51,053 bases of DNA from the NCBI GenBank assembly GCA_017403955.1, contig JAFRDH010000003.1, positions 1 to 51,053 on the forward strand, read 5' to 3'. Shown here in pieces: positions 25,110 to 47,406 of the stretch (position 1 is its first letter; every line of letters begins with the position of its first letter). The notes under the pieces were generated by a model that was not told the origin of the DNA, did no database searches, and saw only the letters and a program-made list of their open reading frames with translations. Source of the DNA: Mogibacterium sp. (GTDB taxonomy: Bacteria; Bacillota; Clostridia; Peptostreptococcales; Anaerovoracaceae). Made by a program: the position numbers and the translations under genes.

Positions 25110-27875
25110 CTATTGTTCACTGAGTATTCTGCGCAGCTCACCTTCTGCTCTTGCGACCATTTCCAGGAATTCTCTCGAGGATATCCTGAGAGCTCCGTGG
25201 ACAAAGGCATCCTGCTGGACGAGGCTGTCTGATGAGACCATATATATCTGACGGTTCCGGGTATTATTTACGATCTTGCCCATGCAGATATCCGCAGGTT
25301 CATCCTGGACAGTATATATCACCTTGATGCCGTGATAGTCCTCCTCAGAGCCTTTGCCGAAATTGACCAGATAGGCATCGAAAACTACTATCATGTCGTA
25401 GCCGATAAAAGCTGCATAATTCGCCAGTCTGTCGAGGAGCTGATCTCTGGCACCGCCCATATCTCTGGACGCCAGGTCCTTGAGATACCCGTCTGAATAG
25501 ATCAAATTATAACCATCTACAAGTATAAGCGGCTTCTGTTCCTGAACAGGGGCTGCTTTTTTCTCGTGCTTGGCCCTGATCTCCTTGTTGCGTTCTTCAT
25601 TCTGTTCCCTTTCTTCAGGGCTTATGTCTATGTTCTTTTCAGGTCTTCTGAACCTGGATGAATGCGCCTCATTGCGCGAAGTGGATTTCGAAGTGCCGTA
25701 AGTCCGCTCGAAGATGCTGCGAAGTTCCGCTTCTGCTGCTCTTCTGCGCGCATCCTGTTCCCTGGCTGAACCAAAATCGCCGCCGGAGGCATTTCTTCCA
25801 GCCATGCCTGTCCCATATGATCCGGTCCCGGCGTACCAATCACCATTATCCGCCTGGTCTGAACCTTTTCTCAGTACACTCTGGATATGCATATGTTCCG
25901 GCACATCATACCACTTAACAATATCGCTTCCTCCGTGGCTGACGAACACAGAGTCGGCAGGATTATCGATATCCCTCTCAGGATCGTAGCTGCTTGCTTC
26001 GATCACTTCCTGCGCATTATGACATGGAGCATAGCCTGACGGCGAACATGCAAGCTTGCCGGTTCCTGCGGTATAACCTGTCAGGATCAGCTGATAACCT
26101 GCAATTTCCGATGCAGGGACTCTGCCCCTGATGCGGGACAGATCGCCGTTTTGTTCCAGATCGTCCTGTGTCCCGCCCATCTGCCGGATATCCGTCATCG
26201 CGCGTCCGACATTCTGTGACGGAAGCTCTATCTCATATTCATACCAAGGCTCCAGAAGGACTGCTTTTTCCTCAGAACGAGCCTGCATCAGAGCATTTCG
26301 GACGGCTCTGTAAGTTGCCTCTCTGAAATCTCCTCCGCTTGTATGCTTGTCATGCGCCCTTCCGGCTGCAAGTGTGATCCTGACATCAGTCAGCGGTGAT
26401 CCGGTCAGGACGCCTATATGCTCTTTCTCATCGAGATGAGTCATGATAAGGCGCTGCCAGTTTCTGGCGAGTTCGTCTTCAGGTGTGATACTGCTGAGGA
26501 CGATACCGCTGCCCGGTTCGCCCGGTTCCACGATCAGATGAACCTCTGCATAGTGCCTGAGCGGCTCAAAATGGCCTACACCTTCGTATGTATCCGCTAC
26601 CGTTTCCAGATAAAGAACGCTGCCTGTTCCGAATGTGACATCATATCCGAATCTGTCCCTGATCATGCCCGAAAGCACTTCAAGCTGTACCTGTCCCATG
26701 AGTCTTATCTCGATCTCGCCGGTATCCTGTCTCCAGCTTGCGTGGAGGACCGGATCTTCTGCCGAGAGACTCCTCAGATCCTTCATAACAAGGAACGGAT
26801 CCATATCTTCAGGGCCGCTGACAGTATAAACCATGAAAGGCTTGATCATCTGGTCATATGACGGTTCTTCAAAACCTATCCCGTCGCCCGGAAGTGCCTC
26901 TGAGAGGCCGGTCACTGCACACACAGTTCCCGCAGGTGCGGAATCGGCCGCCGAAAACTTGCTGCCTGAATATATCCTTATCTGGTTGACCTTTGCTTCC
27001 CAGTCGTCTTCGCCTGAATCCGCCATAGCAGCAGATCTTCCGCTTATCTTGTCTCTTACCTTGAGCTCACCGCCTGTGACCTTCAGGAAACACAGCTTCT
27101 CTCCGTCTTCTGCATTTGAGATTTTGTAGACTTTGGCGCCAAAATCTGATGAGTATTCAGGTTCTGTTGTGAATGCGTCAATGACCTCAAGGAGTTCATC
27201 GATACCTTCGAGTTTGAGTGCCGAACCGAATACGCAAGGCACAACTTCCCTTCTGATGATCGAAAAAGCAATGTCTTCATCAGTCAGGATCTGGTCGCTG
27301 TGCGCACCGTCCTGAGGACCTTCAAGGACTTTCTCCGCAAGTTCCGGTGAATACAGAGTAATGTCGTCGATGAATTTGTCAGTTCTGGCTATCGCACCGC
27401 CAAAATCCACTGCACCGGCACCGAGTTCATTTGCCAATTCGTCAATAATATCTTCCTTGCGGCGGACAGCAATATCCATTTTATTTATGAACATGAAAAC
27501 AGGAATGCCCTTTTGACTGAGCATCCTGTATAAAGTTCTCGTATGAGCCTGGACTCCTTCGGAGCCGCTCACAACAAGAAGAGCATAGTCGATGACGGAA
27601 AGCGCCCGCTCCATCTCAGCGGCAAAATCCACGTGTCCCGGTGTATCTATAAGTGTCACGGAAGTCCCGCCTGCCTGAAAGCCCGCCTGCCTTGAGAACA
27701 CTGTGATGCCTCTGTTTCTCTCGACTTCACTGTCGTCCAGATAGGCATTCTTGTGATCCACTCGTCCGAGTTTTCTTATCTCTCCTGTCCTGAAGAGAAT
27801 AGCTTCAGACAAAGTCGTTTTACCGGCATCGACATGCGCCAGTATTCCTATAGTTATCTGTTTATTTTTGCTCAC
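25110..27875 (-). CDS. TetM-like translational GTPase fused to a YacP/Rae1-like NYN ribonuclease
   Basis: A 921-residue two-part protein. Residues 1-~650 follow ribosomal-protection proteins (TetM/TetO) and EF-G: G1 HVDAGKT (14-20), switch RGIT, G3 DTPGH (77-81), G4 NKMD (131-134), then the EF-G-like later domains (LPSQNVGRAMTDIRQMGG, RVPASEIAGYQ). A charged linker with low-complexity stretches (about 690-780) leads to a NYN domain (782-921) like YacP/Rae1: LILVDGYNLI (Asp787), VVFDAY (Asp833), EPADI (Asp862) and SSDSLVQQDAFVHGALRIS (Asp883). In B. subtilis Rae1 cleaves mRNA in the ribosomal A site. The GTG start overlaps the ridA stop codon by one base, implying translational coupling. It may not confer tetracycline resistance. 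Confidence 0.9.
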   Translation of the reverse strand: MSKNKQITIGILAHVDAGKTTLSEAILFRTGEIRKLGRVDHKNAYLDDSEVERNRGITVFSRQAGFQAGGTSVTLIDTPGHVDFAAEMERALSVIDYALLVVSGSEGVQAHTRTLYRMLSQKGIPVFMFINKMDIAVRRKEDIIDELANELGAGAVDFGGAIARTDKFIDDITLYSPELAEKVLEGPQDGAHSDQILTDEDIAFSIIRREVVPCVFGSALKLEGIDELLEVIDAFTTEPEYSSDFGAKVYKISNAEDGEKLCFLKVTGGELKVRDKISGRSAAMADSGEDDWEAKVNQIRIYSGSKFSAADSAPAGTVCAVTGLSEALPGDGIGFEEPSYDQMIKPFMVYTVSGPEDMDPFLVMKDLRSLSAEDPVLHASWRQDTGEIEIRLMGQVQLEVLSGMIRDRFGYDVTFGTGSVLYLETVADTYEGVGHFEPLRHYAEVHLIVEPGEPGSGIVLSSITPEDELARNWQRLIMTHLDEKEHIGVLTGSPLTDVRITLAAGRAHDKHTSGGDFREATYRAVRNALMQARSEEKAVLLEPWYEYEIELPSQNVGRAMTDIRQMGGTQDDLEQNGDLSRIRGRVPASEIAGYQLILTGYTAGTGKLACSPSGYAPCHNAQEVIEASSYDPERDIDNPADSVFVSHGGSDIVKWYDVPEHMHIQSVLRKGSDQADNGDWYAGTGSYGTGMAGRNASGGDFGSAREQDARRRAAEAELRSIFERTYGTSKSTSRNEAHSSRFRRPEKNIDISPEEREQNEERNKEIRAKHEKKAAPVQEQKPLILVDGYNLIYSDGYLKDLASRDMGGARDQLLDRLANYAAFIGYDMIVVFDAYLVNFGKGSEEDYHGIKVIYTVQDEPADICMGKIVNNTRNRQIYMVSSDSLVQQDAFVHGALRISSREFLEMVARAEGELRRILSEQ

Positions 27876-29389: not shown

Positions 29390-30691
29390 CTATATGATGG
29401 AGCCGATATCCGTAAGCGGCCAGTCTTCGAACCACTTCAAAGTGAGACCTTTGCCTTCTATGAAAGCTTTGATAGCGCAAAAGTCCGGATGATCCGCCAG
29501 ATTCCCGTTGAAAACGATAGTGTTGCCGATCCGTCCGCTTGTGCCTCCTATGAATCCGGTATCATAGCCCGGAAGCAGTACATGTCCGGGTCTTATCTCC
29601 AGCACATCCATCCCGCATGATCTGCATTTTTCAGCAATGCCGTGGTCATAAGTAATTATAGAATTCTCATCAACGATAACAATGCTGCATTTTGCGTATC
29701 CTTGTCTTATATCTATCATTTTCATGCCCAGGTTTCCGGCGGTTTCTATAAGTTCAGGCGCTGTGAACCTGAGATTGTGTATGAAAAATCTTCCGGTGCA
29801 TGCAGCATTATACGGGATGTCCTGAGGATAAACCTTGCCGAGGCTCTTTCTTTTCTCCTCACTGCAGATGACAAGCTGAGCATCATCAGAATAACCCATT
29901 CTGCAAATGAACATATCAGGATGGTTCGAGACAGGCTCTGCGACTATCCCCTCAGTCCTGAAACTGATGAATGTGCATCCTTGTTCCCTTAGCCATGAGA
30001 CAAGGCCCTGCTCTGCGTCTTCAGAAACATATACTTTCCGTCCGATAAGACCGGGGATTTCCGCAGGGTCATCTATTATTATTTCTGCGTCATATGCCTC
30101 AAGCTCGGATCTTGGTCTGAACCCCCAGCTGACTCCGACAGAAGTCACGCCGGCATTATGAGCAGTCAGCATATCGGTATTTGTATCACCGAAATACAGA
30201 CATTCATCAGCTGAAACGCCATATTTCGCCAATATCTCGAAGACGCCTGCAGGATCCGGTTTGATCGGGATCCTGTCTGTCTGTCCCTGTATATAGTCAA
30301 ACATCCCCTTGCCGAACAATGTCTCAACTACGTTGACCGCACTGGTGTGCGGCTTGTTAGAGAACACAGTGATGATGATCCCTGCATCTTTCAGCGCATG
30401 AAGAGATTCAACGATATGCTCATAAGGTTCAACAAGATAGAGCGGATCCTCTTCCATCCATGCTCTGCACATCGGAAGGCCTTCTTCCAGCAATTTGCCT
30501 TCAGGATCCCCTGCATCAGCAAGAGCCCTCCTGAGAGCATTTTTGATCCCGTCTCCGGCATAATAATTGAACGCTTCTACCGGCTGCTCAGGCAAGCCAA
30601 AATGCGCCAGTGTCATATTGACCGGCCTTGCGATCGATGCCTGAGTCCTCGCCAGAGTACCGTCCAGATCGAAAATACATATTTTTATCAT
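29390..30691 (-). CDS. HAD phosphatase fused to a DUF6873-like domain
   Basis: A 433-residue fusion. Residues 1-~213 form a phosphoglycolate-phosphatase-type HAD: IFDLDGTLA (Asp8, Asp10), VFSNKPH, IPIKPDP (motif III Lys) and YFGDTNTDMLTAHNAG. Residues ~216-433 form a separate domain beginning KVYVSEDAEQGLVSWLREQG, with SNHPDMFICRMG, GYAKCSIVIVDENSIITYDH and GFIGGTSGRIGNTIVFNGNL. From memory this resembles the DUF6873 family, assigned to the guanidino-group-modifying enzyme fold; that is a recollection and not a search. The HAD part dephosphorylates a small molecule. The fusion suggests linked steps on one metabolite. It is 9 bp from the channel gene upstream. Confidence 0.8.
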   Translation of the reverse strand: MIKICIFDLDGTLARTQASIARPVNMTLAHFGLPEQPVEAFNYYAGDGIKNALRRALADAGDPEGKLLEEGLPMCRAWMEEDPLYLVEPYEHIVESLHALKDAGIIITVFSNKPHTSAVNVVETLFGKGMFDYIQGQTDRIPIKPDPAGVFEILAKYGVSADECLYFGDTNTDMLTAHNAGVTSVGVSWGFRPRSELEAYDAEIIIDDPAEIPGLIGRKVYVSEDAEQGLVSWLREQGCTFISFRTEGIVAEPVSNHPDMFICRMGYSDDAQLVICSEEKRKSLGKVYPQDIPYNAACTGRFFIHNLRFTAPELIETAGNLGMKMIDIRQGYAKCSIVIVDENSIITYDHGIAEKCRSCGMDVLEIRPGHVLLPGYDTGFIGGTSGRIGNTIVFNGNLADHPDFCAIKAFIEGKGLTLKWFEDWPLTDIGSII

Positions 30692-40751: not shown

Positions 40752-42029
40752 TCAGTCAGTATTGCTTGCGTGCAGCCTGTTCCTGCGCATCTTATTTCTG
40801 ACTTTTCTTGTATAGTGTGAAACTGATGAGCTCAGTACGAATCCGATACTCATGCCCAGCAAAGCTACTATGCAGCTTCCGCCATTGGCCATTGCCATGG
40901 TCCAGTTCCCGTACAGTGTTCCCAGTATCGCATAGAAGAACAGATCTCCCGGTATAAGAGGTATGATAGCAGGATATACGAAATACGTGGAAGGGTCCCT
41001 TCGTTTCGATGCCAGGAATTCCGCGTAAAGTGCAGCGACAAGAGCTGCCGCACCGGTGAAGATCAGTCTGTAGTGTACGACCCCGGGAAGGAATATCAGT
41101 ACCAGCCTCGTCAGAACTCCGCCTATTCCTGCTCTCCAAAGATCGTGAGGCGGTATCTCAAACACGACCCCGAATCCGACCGATGCACAGAAAGACAAAA
41201 AAATCAGCAGCCAAGGATCACTCAAAAATGTGACTGTCTGACTGCTCAGTCCTGCACCGCCTTTGAACACGAAAACAGCAACATAGATACCCGCGCCGAG
41301 AGCTGCAGTTTCGAGAACAACCTTCATAAGCTGCAGCACGCCATTCATCTCATGGTCGCAGATCAGATTACGAACAGCATTGACGAGTGGTATTCCGGGA
41401 AGAAATATCATACACAATGTAATGAAAAGTACTTGAGGCTTTGCAGTAATGCCGGCAGTGTACATGACCATTACAGCAAGTGTAGCTATAGTCATTGTCA
41501 GAGCACTGGCGACAAGCCTGTTCAGGTCAATGCGTCTCATCAGTCTGCCTACGAATCTTAGCGCGATCGTTAAAACAGCGGTGATAAGCACTTCTGTAAT
41601 TCCCCCGCCAAAGATAAGGCAGAGACTTGCTATTGCACCGACCTGGCCTGCGGTAAGCGCAGCCTCAGAGTATTCTCTTGCACGCCATGCCTCATCAAGC
41701 ATTGCATGAAGTTCTGATGCTTGTGGCTTCTCATTAACTACCGTGTAAGAAAGACGGTTCAGCCGTTTAAGTCTTTCCAGATGTATTGACGCAGGCAGTA
41801 TAGTGACCTGCCTTGAAAAATAATTGCCTGCAGGATCCTTTGCACTGAGCGAGATATGTGAGCTCAGCAGGAAAATACTGACATCGGTAAACCCGTACGC
41901 GCGGCATATCAAAGTCATAGTAAGATCCACTCTTTCGAGATTTGCCCCGCTGATCACCATGCATCTTGCAAGATTCACGCAAAATTCCAGTACAAGGGCC
42001 GCATTGCTTTCCTGTTTGCTTTTGTTCAC
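40752..42029 (-). CDS. Threonine/serine exporter ThrE-family protein
   Basis: A 425-residue membrane protein joining the two ThrE halves that are separate proteins (YjjP/YjjB-like) in some bacteria. The cytoplasmic N-terminal ~115 residues carry ANLERVDLTMTLICRAYGFTDV, followed by about ten hydrophobic segments, with FLPGIPLVNAVRNLI and AIIPLIPGDLFFYAI as the paired signatures of the two halves. It probably exports small amino acids or similar metabolites. The start is GTG with AAAAGGA upstream. Confidence 0.88.
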   Translation of the reverse strand: MNKSKQESNAALVLEFCVNLARCMVISGANLERVDLTMTLICRAYGFTDVSIFLLSSHISLSAKDPAGNYFSRQVTILPASIHLERLKRLNRLSYTVVNEKPQASELHAMLDEAWRAREYSEAALTAGQVGAIASLCLIFGGGITEVLITAVLTIALRFVGRLMRRIDLNRLVASALTMTIATLAVMVMYTAGITAKPQVLFITLCMIFLPGIPLVNAVRNLICDHEMNGVLQLMKVVLETAALGAGIYVAVFVFKGGAGLSSQTVTFLSDPWLLIFLSFCASVGFGVVFEIPPHDLWRAGIGGVLTRLVLIFLPGVVHYRLIFTGAAALVAALYAEFLASKRRDPSTYFVYPAIIPLIPGDLFFYAILGTLYGNWTMAMANGGSCIVALLGMSIGFVLSSSVSHYTRKVRNKMRRNRLHASNTD

Positions 42030-44269: not shown

Positions 44270-44296
44270 AATAGATATGTACAGACGGTGATTAGC

Positions 44297-45565
44297 ATGA
44301 AAATAGCGGCTTTAGTTCTTTTTGTTTTAATGTATATACTCATGATCGCACTGCCCAAATACAGGCCATTTTCTGCCCTCTCGGTCGCTGTGATCTTCGT
44401 GATAGCCGGAATAGTGCCGGTCGATAGTCTGCCGGGTGCTATCAACTGGAATGTTCTGATGATGATTTCCGGTACGATGATAATCGTCCACTATTTCATT
44501 GATTCACGAATGCCCAATCTGCTTGCGGACATTATGCTCGGAAAGGCAGGAACTGTCAGAGGGGCAACGATATTGATGTCTGTTTTTACAGGTGTTATTT
44601 CCGCATTTATCGATAATGTAGCGACAGTGCTGATAGTCGCACCCGTCGGACTGGCTATTTGCAAAAAAATGAAAATCAATCCTGTAGGCATGATCCTATC
44701 GATCGCTGTTTCTTCTAATCTGCAAGGCGCCGCCACGCTTGTAGGCGACACCACATCGATCATGCTCGGAGACTTTGCGGACATGGATTTCATGGATTTC
44801 TTCTGGATGAATGGCAGGCCCGGGATCTTCTTTGCGGTAGAGCTTGGAGCTGCAGCTACCATTCCTGTTATGCTATTCCTGTTCCGCAAGGACAAGATGC
44901 AGATTTCCTCAACTGAAAGAACTGTTATTACTGATTATGTGCCGACTGTTATGCTTATCCTGATGGTCGCAGCGCTTATCACCGCTTCATTCATCCCCGG
45001 TACGCCTGCAGTGCTCAATGGTATTATATGCTGTTCACTGGCTGTCATTACGATTCTGATCGACTCTATCAGTGAGCATCAAACCGATGATGCCGTCGCG
45101 GCGTTCAGAAATCTCGACTACCAGACTCTCGGTCTTCTGGCCGGACTTTTTGTCGTCATCAGCGGACTTACTAATGTAGGTGTGATCGATGATTTTGCTG
45201 ATCTGGTAGTTAAATACGGAGGAGATAATATCTTCATTCTGTATACGATCATTGTATGGGGATCCGTACTGATCTCCGCTTTTGTTGATAATATCCCTTA
45301 TGTCGCCACTATGCTGCCTGTTCTTGCAACGGTAACGGCTTCGCTTGGGATCGAACCGCATCTTCTGTACTTTGGCCTTCTGTCCGGCGCGACACTGGGC
45401 GGGAGTTTAACGCCAATAGGCGCATCGGCAAATATCACAGCTGTAGGTCTGCTGCGAAAAGAAGGCTATCCTGCTTCAATCGGTCAGTTCATGAAAATAG
45501 GTATCCCGTATACACTGGCTGCAGTGATGACAGGATACCTGTATTTCTGGTTTATCTGGAGATGA
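44297..45565 (+). CDS. ArsB/NhaD-like (SLC13/IT superfamily) permease
   Basis: A 422-residue membrane protein with about eleven hydrophobic segments. The two repeat signatures are present: SAFIDNVATVLIVAPVGLA and SAFVDNIPYVATMLPVLATV, followed by GASANITAVGLLRKEGYPAS. These are hallmarks of the ArsB/NhaD/P-protein branch of the ion transporter superfamily. The substrate is unknown. Control by the upstream Mn2+ riboswitch suggests it handles manganese or relieves manganese stress. I chose ATG at 44297; GTG nine bases earlier is possible. Confidence 0.88.
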   Translation: MKIAALVLFVLMYILMIALPKYRPFSALSVAVIFVIAGIVPVDSLPGAINWNVLMMISGTMIIVHYFIDSRMPNLLADIMLGKAGTVRGATILMSVFTGVISAFIDNVATVLIVAPVGLAICKKMKINPVGMILSIAVSSNLQGAATLVGDTTSIMLGDFADMDFMDFFWMNGRPGIFFAVELGAAATIPVMLFLFRKDKMQISSTERTVITDYVPTVMLILMVAALITASFIPGTPAVLNGIICCSLAVITILIDSISEHQTDDAVAAFRNLDYQTLGLLAGLFVVISGLTNVGVIDDFADLVVKYGGDNIFILYTIIVWGSVLISAFVDNIPYVATMLPVLATVTASLGIEPHLLYFGLLSGATLGGSLTPIGASANITAVGLLRKEGYPASIGQFMKIGIPYTLAAVMTGYLYFWFIWR

Positions 45566-46128: not shown

Positions 46129-47406
46129 TTACCTACTCTTGTCCGGAGAGTAGAGGGCGCCTTTGTCCAGCAGACCAAAGAGCAAACGTATCAATTTACG
46201 GGACGTCAACGCGAGTGCACGTTTGTGTTGATGAGTGCGAACCTCATCGAACTTCTTCTTGTAGAACAAGGCAAAGGACGATTCGTGCCGGACAACACTT
46301 CCGGCAGCTTCAATAATGTAATAACGCAGATACCGATTCCCGGCCTTGCTCATGCGATTATCTTCCGAATGGAAGTCACCGGAGTCATTCTCGTTCCACA
46401 CGATGCCGGCATATTTTGCCAGCTTACTGTGATTGGGGAAGCACTTGATGGTTCCGATCTCGGCAAGGATGCCCGCAGCATAAACGGGACCGATGCCCGG
46501 AACTGAGCATAGGATCTGGTACTCGGTTGGATTGAGTCCCTTGACAGTCTTCTCAATAGCTTTGTCAATTGCTTTAAGCTCTCTTTCAAAAGCAGAGATG
46601 CAGTTGAACGAAGAAGCGATCGAAACAGTCAAAGGTTCATAGAGACACTTATCCAGACGATAAGAGTTCCTTGCGGCAGTTTGAATAATATCCGCGATAT
46701 GAGCTGGCTCGGCAATACGGCCCCGGCTCTTGCTGTAAATAAAGTCTACAAGCTCCTCGAGAGGCGTATTGATCAGATCATCATTGGTCATGAACTCGGT
46801 GAGGATGCCTTCAGCGGTAGCACCGTATTTGTTGGAGAAAGGATGCTCGTCATTGCGGAGGAGAGCGAACTCGCTGAACTTGAGAAAGATGTTATTCAAA
46901 GCATAAGTTTTCTCTCTGGCAATGCATTCAGTAATGTGTATCCTGTGTCTGGTAAGACGCTGAAGTGCAAGGTACTGTGAGCCTCTCCAAGGCTGGATCT
47001 TTATCTTTCCGACACGGGCAAAGTCGGCGATAACAAAACTGTCGATGCTGTCGTTCTTTGGAAGATCAGTGAAAGACTTCTTGTAATTCTTCACAGTCTT
47101 AGGGTTGAGACAGTAGACCTGGACGCTGAAGGGCAGCAGAAGATCACAGGTGGAAAGATAGTTTGCTGTATGAACACCGTAGAAACTTGTGGATTCCATA
47201 GCGATGATCACAGCTTTTAGTTCATGATGCTTTGACAGAACTGATGCGATCGTATTGGCGAGATCTTCGGTACCGGTCTGAGTATTAGGAAAAGACTTCC
47301 ACTTGATAAGGTAATTTTGATCAAAGTCAATGGCGGAAACCACGTTCGTACGGGATGCGATATCTATCCCGACGAACAGCGTTGACAGGTAATCGATTTT
47401 CTTCAC
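46129..47406 (-). CDS. IS110-family transposase (DEDD recombinase)
   Basis: A 425-residue recombinase. The N-terminal RuvC-like DEDD domain has FVGIDIASRTNVVSAI (Asp), AMESTSF (Glu) and NDSIDSFVIAD (Asp pair); the C-terminal Tnp-20 domain has PGIGPVYAAGILAEIG and the serine motif RMSKAGNRYLRYYIIEAAGS. Recombination is guided by a structured RNA in this family. It starts with GTG, and AAAGGAGG lies 9 nt upstream. It is intact, with no frameshift, so the element may be active. Confidence 0.96.
   Translation of the reverse strand: MKKIDYLSTLFVGIDIASRTNVVSAIDFDQNYLIKWKSFPNTQTGTEDLANTIASVLSKHHELKAVIIAMESTSFYGVHTANYLSTCDLLLPFSVQVYCLNPKTVKNYKKSFTDLPKNDSIDSFVIADFARVGKIKIQPWRGSQYLALQRLTRHRIHITECIAREKTYALNNIFLKFSEFALLRNDEHPFSNKYGATAEGILTEFMTNDDLINTPLEELVDFIYSKSRGRIAEPAHIADIIQTAARNSYRLDKCLYEPLTVSIASSFNCISAFERELKAIDKAIEKTVKGLNPTEYQILCSVPGIGPVYAAGILAEIGTIKCFPNHSKLAKYAGIVWNENDSGDFHSEDNRMSKAGNRYLRYYIIEAAGSVVRHESSFALFYKKKFDEVRTHQHKRALALTSRKLIRLLFGLLDKGALYSPDKSR

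Follow-up and report, generated by a model that had tools for sequence, protein, structure and literature searches.

A Tet/EF-G-type GTPase joined to a Rae1-like NYN nuclease, a candidate tethered form of Rae1 in Clostridia

Introduction

The window analysed here, a stretch of 51,053 nucleotides from Mogibacterium sp. (assembly GCA_017403955.1, contig JAFRDH010000003.1), encodes a protein of 921 residues in which a Tet/EF-G-type GTPase is joined through a linker to a Rae1/YacP-type NYN nuclease (25110..27875, minus strand, GTG start). On balance, we take this fusion to be the tethered form of Rae1 in these bacteria, in which targeting to the ribosome has passed to the GTPase. Rae1 of B. subtilis is described as an endoribonuclease of the ribosomal A site with mRNA as its substrate (PMC6613710). 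For Tet proteins, the drug site in the A site of the 30S subunit is where the loops of domain IV act (PMC8161019, PMC4750697).

An earlier interpretation of the window, made from its letters without database searches (the sequence-only reading), had suggested a ribosome-rescue or mRNA-decay machine; the architecture itself has been known since 2015. The Rae1 paper, reportedly dated 2017, is later than that work by Atkinson. According to the passages seen of Atkinson 2015, Tet proteins of ten clostridial species bear a YacP-like NYN domain, for which antibiotic resistance was guessed without a test (PMC4342817). Judged by its architecture, the window gene very probably belongs to this group. 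Among the literature surveyed, much of it superficially, the fusion is described in PMC4342817 only, and the same mostly superficial survey returned no prior description of a replacement of Rae1, of an empty place after rlmB, of tail loss or of the tip type reported below.

Results

Domain architecture of the fusion

The open reading frame is genuine and comprises GTPase, linker and nuclease in this order, all on the minus strand. The G domain (residues 6-235, 27171..27860) carries the motifs AHVDAGKT, RGIT, DTPGH (with H81) and NKMD. It is followed by domain II (residues 248-328, 26892..27134), which matches Pfam below the cut-off and shows the EF-G fold in the predicted model, and by domains III (residues 361-416, 26628..26795), IV (residues 419-532, 26280..26621) and V (residues 539-621, 26013..26261). 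The nucleotide-site residues D16, G18, K19, T20, T58, D77, G80, H81, N131, K132, and D134 are conserved to at least 97% across 64 fused sequences. Together, domain matches and conserved residues bear out a complete Tet/EF-G-type GTPase within a single frame, as the sequence-only reading had it. Among the 50 matches listed in a fold comparison of the model there is no TetM/TetO chain, which carries no weight either way.

Past domain V, an extension defined by alignment (residues 610-665, 25881..26048; CHN...SVFV..G...V.W..V...MH) leads into the linker (residues 666-783, 25527..25880), which is largely modelled with low confidence. Between W655 and the nuclease, the 64 fused sequences span 77-143 residues (median 88), a length that alone would be enough to reach the decoding site. 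A short helix with the motif E-x-L-x-x-I-F-E-R-T-Y near residues 717-727 is perhaps a docking helix. The form E-x-L-x-x-I-F-x-x-T-Y is matched in 45 of the 64 fused linkers.

The NYN/PIN-like nuclease (residues 784-916, 25128..25526) matches PF05991 (NYN_YacP) with 123 bits against a curated cut-off of 24.6, and a profile search finds no other PF05991 match in the window's genome. Its residues D787, D833, D862, and D883 align with D7, D53, D81, and D104 of Rae1. All four aspartates of the proposed Rae1-type nuclease are thus confirmed by alignment, and neither the 78 fused nor the 49 stand-alone sequences compared (the latter 29 mostly best-scoring matches plus 20 lower-scoring ones) show an exception. 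The position of Rae1 E85 holds a glutamate in 49/49 stand-alone and 71/78 fused sequences, a glycine in the window (Gly866) and its three nearest kin, and an alanine in three other fusions. The NYN part is predicted to fold as Rae1, with high confidence in the core. Right behind the last NYN helix the protein ends (25110..25127), without the Rae1 tail.

Distribution of fused and stand-alone Rae1

A sample of 391 genomes from the class of the window contains 249 with a PF05991 match (E 0.001). Of these, 140 carry the fusion and 107 stand-alone Rae1 only; one case is unclear (G224, whose 190-residue frame contains a stop), and another is weak (G248). Sequence checks covered 125 of the 140 fusions (45 from fetched stretches and 80 of the other 95, which were re-searched) and placed the GTPase upstream of the nuclease in all 125; the other 15 were assigned by frame length alone. 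Thirteen frames of intermediate length were fetched, and twelve of them proved to be fusions with a contig end or a broken frame, the remaining one (G332) being stand-alone. Both forms occur in one genome only (G330, on two contigs), against 38.7 expected under independence without correction for kinship. The same two-domain architecture is found in clostridial genomes, and genomes with the fusion go, with this one exception, without a separate yacP, two points that the sequence-only reading had suggested checking. One genome carries two fusions (G133, genome completeness 61%), and second PF05991 matches in G136, G201, and G242 lie under the cut-off (21 bits).

The two kinds occur in different genomes of at least three of the 18 genera compared (g34, g39, g100). 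In the window's family, the fusion was found in 29 of 60 genomes, three of them clipped at contig ends, and no stand-alone Rae1 was seen there, 14 of the 29 fusion genomes lying outside the NYN-model search. Further, the fusion extends to other classes of a phylum sample, with at least families f89, f93, f137, f140, f152, and f182.

In five of five genomes (G211, G059, G109, G301, G330), stand-alone rae1 is flanked by rlmB immediately upstream and by a sigma-factor-like gene downstream, the latter being recognised by its match to that of G301. By the gene order of B. subtilis, it would be sigH. Fifteen fusion-only genomes were examined at rlmB, one of which (G404) has its contig end there. No NYN match lies within ~1.5 kb downstream of the best rlmB match in any of the 14 testable ones, and thus the fusion occurs where rae1 is gone from its place. 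The next long frame on the strand is the same sigma gene in nine genomes (G155, G136, G201, G294, G348, G222, G337, G041, G001). In the window's genome, the ~1.5 kb after the best rlmB match (contig C17) likewise contain no NYN match, and the fusion lies elsewhere.

The GTPase part forms a type of its own beside the Tet proteins

The label "TetM-like" given by the sequence-only reading applies in part: the GTPase is of the Tet/EF-G type, but it is sister to the TetM/O/W/B(P) group and not a member of it. Its best NCBIfam match, the tet_protect model NF012153, yields 393.5 bits, half of the curated cut-off of 775, and the EF-G model TIGR00484 yields 239.6 bits, under its cut-off of 659.4. A quick maximum-likelihood tree of 90 rows, built without Otr(A), Tet(Q) and others, gathers the 64 fused rows without exception into a single group (97*) that adjoins 13 unfused GTPases (87). 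Fused and unfused rows together (99*) are neighbours of the Tet rows B(P), M, O, and W (100*), the EF-G kin fall outside, and the fusion of the window does not lie inside the group of tested Tet proteins.

Within the fused group, G152 and Monoglobus pectinilyticus carry almost the same gene (branches of 0.01 and 0). Since rows of the window's family sit in several places of this group, the fusion appears to have been transferred between families. A single origin of the fusion on a clean tree was not upheld, as the fused group also holds a truly unfused row (L142, Ligilactobacillus salivarius); two others labelled unfused there are explained by a contig end (L061) and by a split frame (L077). 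Moreover, a tree of the NYN part requires three changes of the fused/unfused label, two of them forced by starred branches. Split fusion frames in the assemblies of L069, L073, L074, L077, and L078 represent assembly errors or decaying copies.

The tip of domain IV (loop III by alignment, residues 505-518, 26322..26363, minus strand) reads GRAHDKHTSGGDFR in the window and is not of the SPVSTP type of Tet proteins. The tip consensus GRAHxKHTxGGDFR is common to fused proteins and unfused sisters, with L142, L002, and L003 deviating, whereas the references show SPVSTPADFR (Tet M/O/W), SPASTPADFR (B(P)), and YHDVDSxE (EF-G). The C-terminal extension, with the consensus CHN...SVFC..G...V.W..V..yMH, is also confined to fused and unfused rows and is found in none of the aligned Tet M/O/W/B(P) and EF-G sequences. 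A zinc site in this extension was considered and discarded, the second cysteine being a valine in the window.

The main alternative, guessed in Atkinson 2015, is a factor that shields ribosomes from tetracycline or from a different A-site drug and has the RNase as an accessory; we regard it as unlikely. Half of the Tet cut-off score, the position of 64 out of 64 fused rows outside the M/O/W/B(P) group and the different type of tip loop speak against a protection factor, even though tet_protect is the best NCBIfam match and NCBI labels some relatives as TetM/TetW/TetO/TetS family. The altered tip is itself compatible with protection, because the TetM loop III triple mutant S508A/P509A/V510A remains active (PMC4750697), and in TetM, too, an extension at the C terminus is important for function (PMC4750697). 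The gene tree mixes families, so the gene moves between lineages, as a resistance gene may; a trade-off with stand-alone rae1 and an empty place after rlmB would be unexpected for such a gene. Plasmids argue in the same direction: the NYN part occurs in 23 of 72,556 plasmid records, two of which hold confirmed fusions among mostly chromosomal-type genes (records of 252 and 518 kb), while three without annotation there were not examined. The fusion in the 252 kb record adjoins a toxin-antitoxin pair, and that in the 518 kb record lies near a recombinase gene.

Other mobile DNA was searched as well. NYN matches are present in 11 of 50,697 phage records, all unannotated and unchecked for fusion. 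A protein scan of viral contigs with the NYN part returned no relative, and a scan with the fusion alignment returned no fusion among 49 loci, of which L148 and L149 are close unfused GTPases. As a separate observation, 12 extrachromosomal records of Clostridioides difficile (H12-H23, 97-150 kb) encode an NYN protein ~30% identical to the window's nuclease, a candidate for a second, mobile Rae1.

The C-terminal tail of Rae1 is often lost in fusions

The fusion of the window has 38 residues beyond the fourth aspartate. Among the first 29 stand-alone Rae1, 28 have 64-68 residues in this region and one has 153, and the 20 lower-scoring ones have 55-70. A tail is thus present in all 49 stand-alone proteins, and it is lost in the window and in 30 of 76 other fusions. 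Of 78 fused sequences, 77 could be counted (L002 is clipped by its contig): 31 including the window have 35-43 residues and finish immediately behind the last NYN helix; another 18 reach 50-60, and 28 reach 62-76.

In each of the first 29 stand-alone proteins, the tail closes with a basic motif, L-E-K-[IWL]-R-[RK] or a close form, that aligns with Rae1 up to R166, a position at the tail end; R166P is listed among the loss-of-function suppressor alleles of B. subtilis rae1 (PMC6613710). The strict pattern fits this basic end in 27 of 28, the extended protein being excluded. It is present in 0 of the 46 fusions with a tail of at least 50 residues, and the 31 short fusions stop before it. A second, differently written tail pattern matches 21 of 29 stand-alone proteins and one of 77 fusions, the latter in unrelated sequence. 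Further, a tail profile built from 14 members of the first stand-alone set scores 19.9-45.0 on 14 held-out ones and at most 8.9 on fusions. On the 20 lower-scoring stand-alone Rae1 it gives -4.9 to 19.7, and because these scores overlap those of fusions, the profile is no general separator of the two kinds. The idea that every stand-alone Rae1 ends in the basic motif was rejected, about half of the lower-scoring proteins being without it. Three stand-alone Rae1 (L235, L236, L241) end in an acidic L-E-E-W-E-K-D-like tail instead, and stand-alone Rae1 may have more than one type of tail.

The GTPase may have made the Rae1 tail dispensable, and the lost tail may have served docking.

Unfused sister GTPases

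The unfused sisters (e.g., L130-L141) have ~650-700 residues, are 41-44% identical, and occur with or without stand-alone Rae1. Counted at a threshold of at least 40% identity, they were found in 15 of 80 sampled genomes with stand-alone Rae1 (16 copies; 80 of 107 sampled) and in none of 80 fusion genomes; outside these sets, G445 holds a fusion and an unfused copy. The difference from the 6 of 80 genomes without YacP (the first 80 of 142) gives a Fisher p of 0.059 without kinship correction. A strict need of Rae1 for the unfused GTPase was rejected, these six genomes carrying the GTPase in the absence of YacP.

Three unfused GTPases near the fused group bear the C-terminal extension motif, namely L142 5998-7917 on a plasmid of L. 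salivarius and L148 and L149 1-2178 on contigs listed as viral. On such mobile elements, the nuclease may have been lost secondarily.

Neighbouring genes in the window

Upstream of the fusion lies ridA (Ribonuc_L-PSP, PF01042; 27875..28249, minus strand), which overlaps the start of the fusion by one base. The overlap that the sequence-only reading took for translational coupling is real in the window, but it is private to this genome: no ridA was found near 84 other fusion loci, which represent 74 distinct genes and of which 15 had flanks of 1.5 kb only. With 0 of 74 other fusion genes accompanied by it, ridA was rejected as a functional partner and is probably not part of the system. The radical SAM, HAD, MgtC, TrxB-like, and channel neighbours of the window are absent from the same 84 loci (74 genes).

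Two further observations concern other genes. At 29390-30691 (minus strand), a HAD hydrolase is joined to DUF6873 (PF21778, 1.3e-60), a family without known function, and this pairing may hint at a role for DUF6873. Three frames with a GTG start, at 40752-42029 (minus strand), 44288-45565 (plus strand) and 46129-47406 (minus strand), have exactly 425 codons for amino acids each; the first is a ThrE-type exporter. Between 38000 and 51053, the window contains no DNA repeats of at least 200 bases.

Discussion

For a tethered Rae1, the following course of events can be proposed. On a stalled or idle ribosome, with nothing or the wrong occupant in its A site, the EF-G/Tet-type GTPase in its GTP form would enter this site, and its domain IV would sit in the decoding site. 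The NYN nuclease on its linker of ~80-140 residues would then cut the mRNA in or close to the A site. Subsequent GTP hydrolysis would release the fusion protein, as proposed for Tet proteins (PMC8161019), and the cut transcript would pass to decay and rescue. Ribosome binding, the position in the A site, cleavage, the order of steps, and the choice of ribosomes are all parts that we infer. The sequence-only reading had the nuclease delivered by GTP hydrolysis. Delivery on the GTPase is plausible and is somewhat strengthened by the missing tail. Driving it by hydrolysis probably inverts the order of events, as hydrolysis in Tet proteins appears to serve release (PMC8161019).

Several observations weigh against this proposal. 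Prediction of the full-length structure, suggested as a check by the sequence-only reading, does not fix the position of the nuclease (predicted template modelling score, pTM, 0.47). Neither form is found in 31 of the 60 genomes of the window's family, which have no PF05991 match. The tail argument is weakened, because the basic end is not universal (it occurs in only 6 of the 20 lower-scoring stand-alone Rae1 by pattern, or 9 of 20 by eye) and 28 of 77 fusions retain a tail of at least 62 residues; moreover, the effect of R166P might be a mere unfolding of Rae1. The window's nuclease is without the Rae1 E85 and diverges more from its three nearest kin than does the GTPase (48-51% vs. 59-63% identity). 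Finally, unfused copies of the GTPase exist in the 6 of 80 YacP-less genomes, plus one clipped by a contig end (G131), and the GTPase consequently has some role that is free of the nuclease.

A quite improbable alternative gives the nuclease a part in the maturation or trimming of rRNA or tRNA, with the GTPase as a scaffold or ribosome assembly factor. Such a function was the original proposal for the NYN/YacP group (as cited in PMC4342817) and would suit the place of stand-alone rae1 next to rlmB, an rRNA methyltransferase gene, but B. subtilis Rae1 is described as acting on mRNA in the A site (PMC6613710) and its listed targets are mRNAs and small RNAs (PMC10632193). That the nuclease is a passenger losing its activity in the window's lineage, as the glycine that the window shares with three nearest kin at the E85 position, the identity below that of the GTPase part and the lost tail could suggest, is very improbable in view of the four aspartates kept in 78 of 78 fused sequences and the confidently predicted core fold.

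If the fusion is a tethered Rae1, translation quality control in this bacterial class would commonly involve a GTPase-gated mRNA endonuclease, and the way in which Rae1 finds ribosomes could be tested by a comparison of tethered and free forms. A broader version, in which the GTPase took over ribosome targeting from an A-site endonuclease and the tethered form, often with its tail lost, replaced free Rae1 across much of the class, is possible but on the doubtful side; if true, one polypeptide would probe the A site in a GTP-gated manner and cut the message as a bacterial quality-control factor. Some genes counted as "tetracycline resistance" (e.g., one in Agathobacter rectalis) may also be housekeeping genes, in which case counts of resistance would be inflated.

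Comparison with known systems

The closest described proteins are the Tet-NYN proteins of Atkinson 2015, which have the same two-part architecture as the window gene, GTPase followed by YacP-like NYN domain; the passages seen of that paper contain neither the Rae1 replacement nor the tail loss or the tip loop. The unfused sisters share the tip loop and the C-terminal extension motif with the fusion and have no nuclease. Tet(M) and Tet(O) are five-domain EF-G-like GTPases of similar length with 28-30% identity, from which the fusion differs by its domain IV tip, the C-terminal extension, the additional linker and nuclease, and its separate group in the tree. B. subtilis Rae1/YacP (PDB 5mq8, 5mq9) has no GTPase and another gene neighbourhood, and the window's nuclease in turn has neither its tail nor E85, whereas both share the NYN fold and the four aspartates at 36-38% identity.

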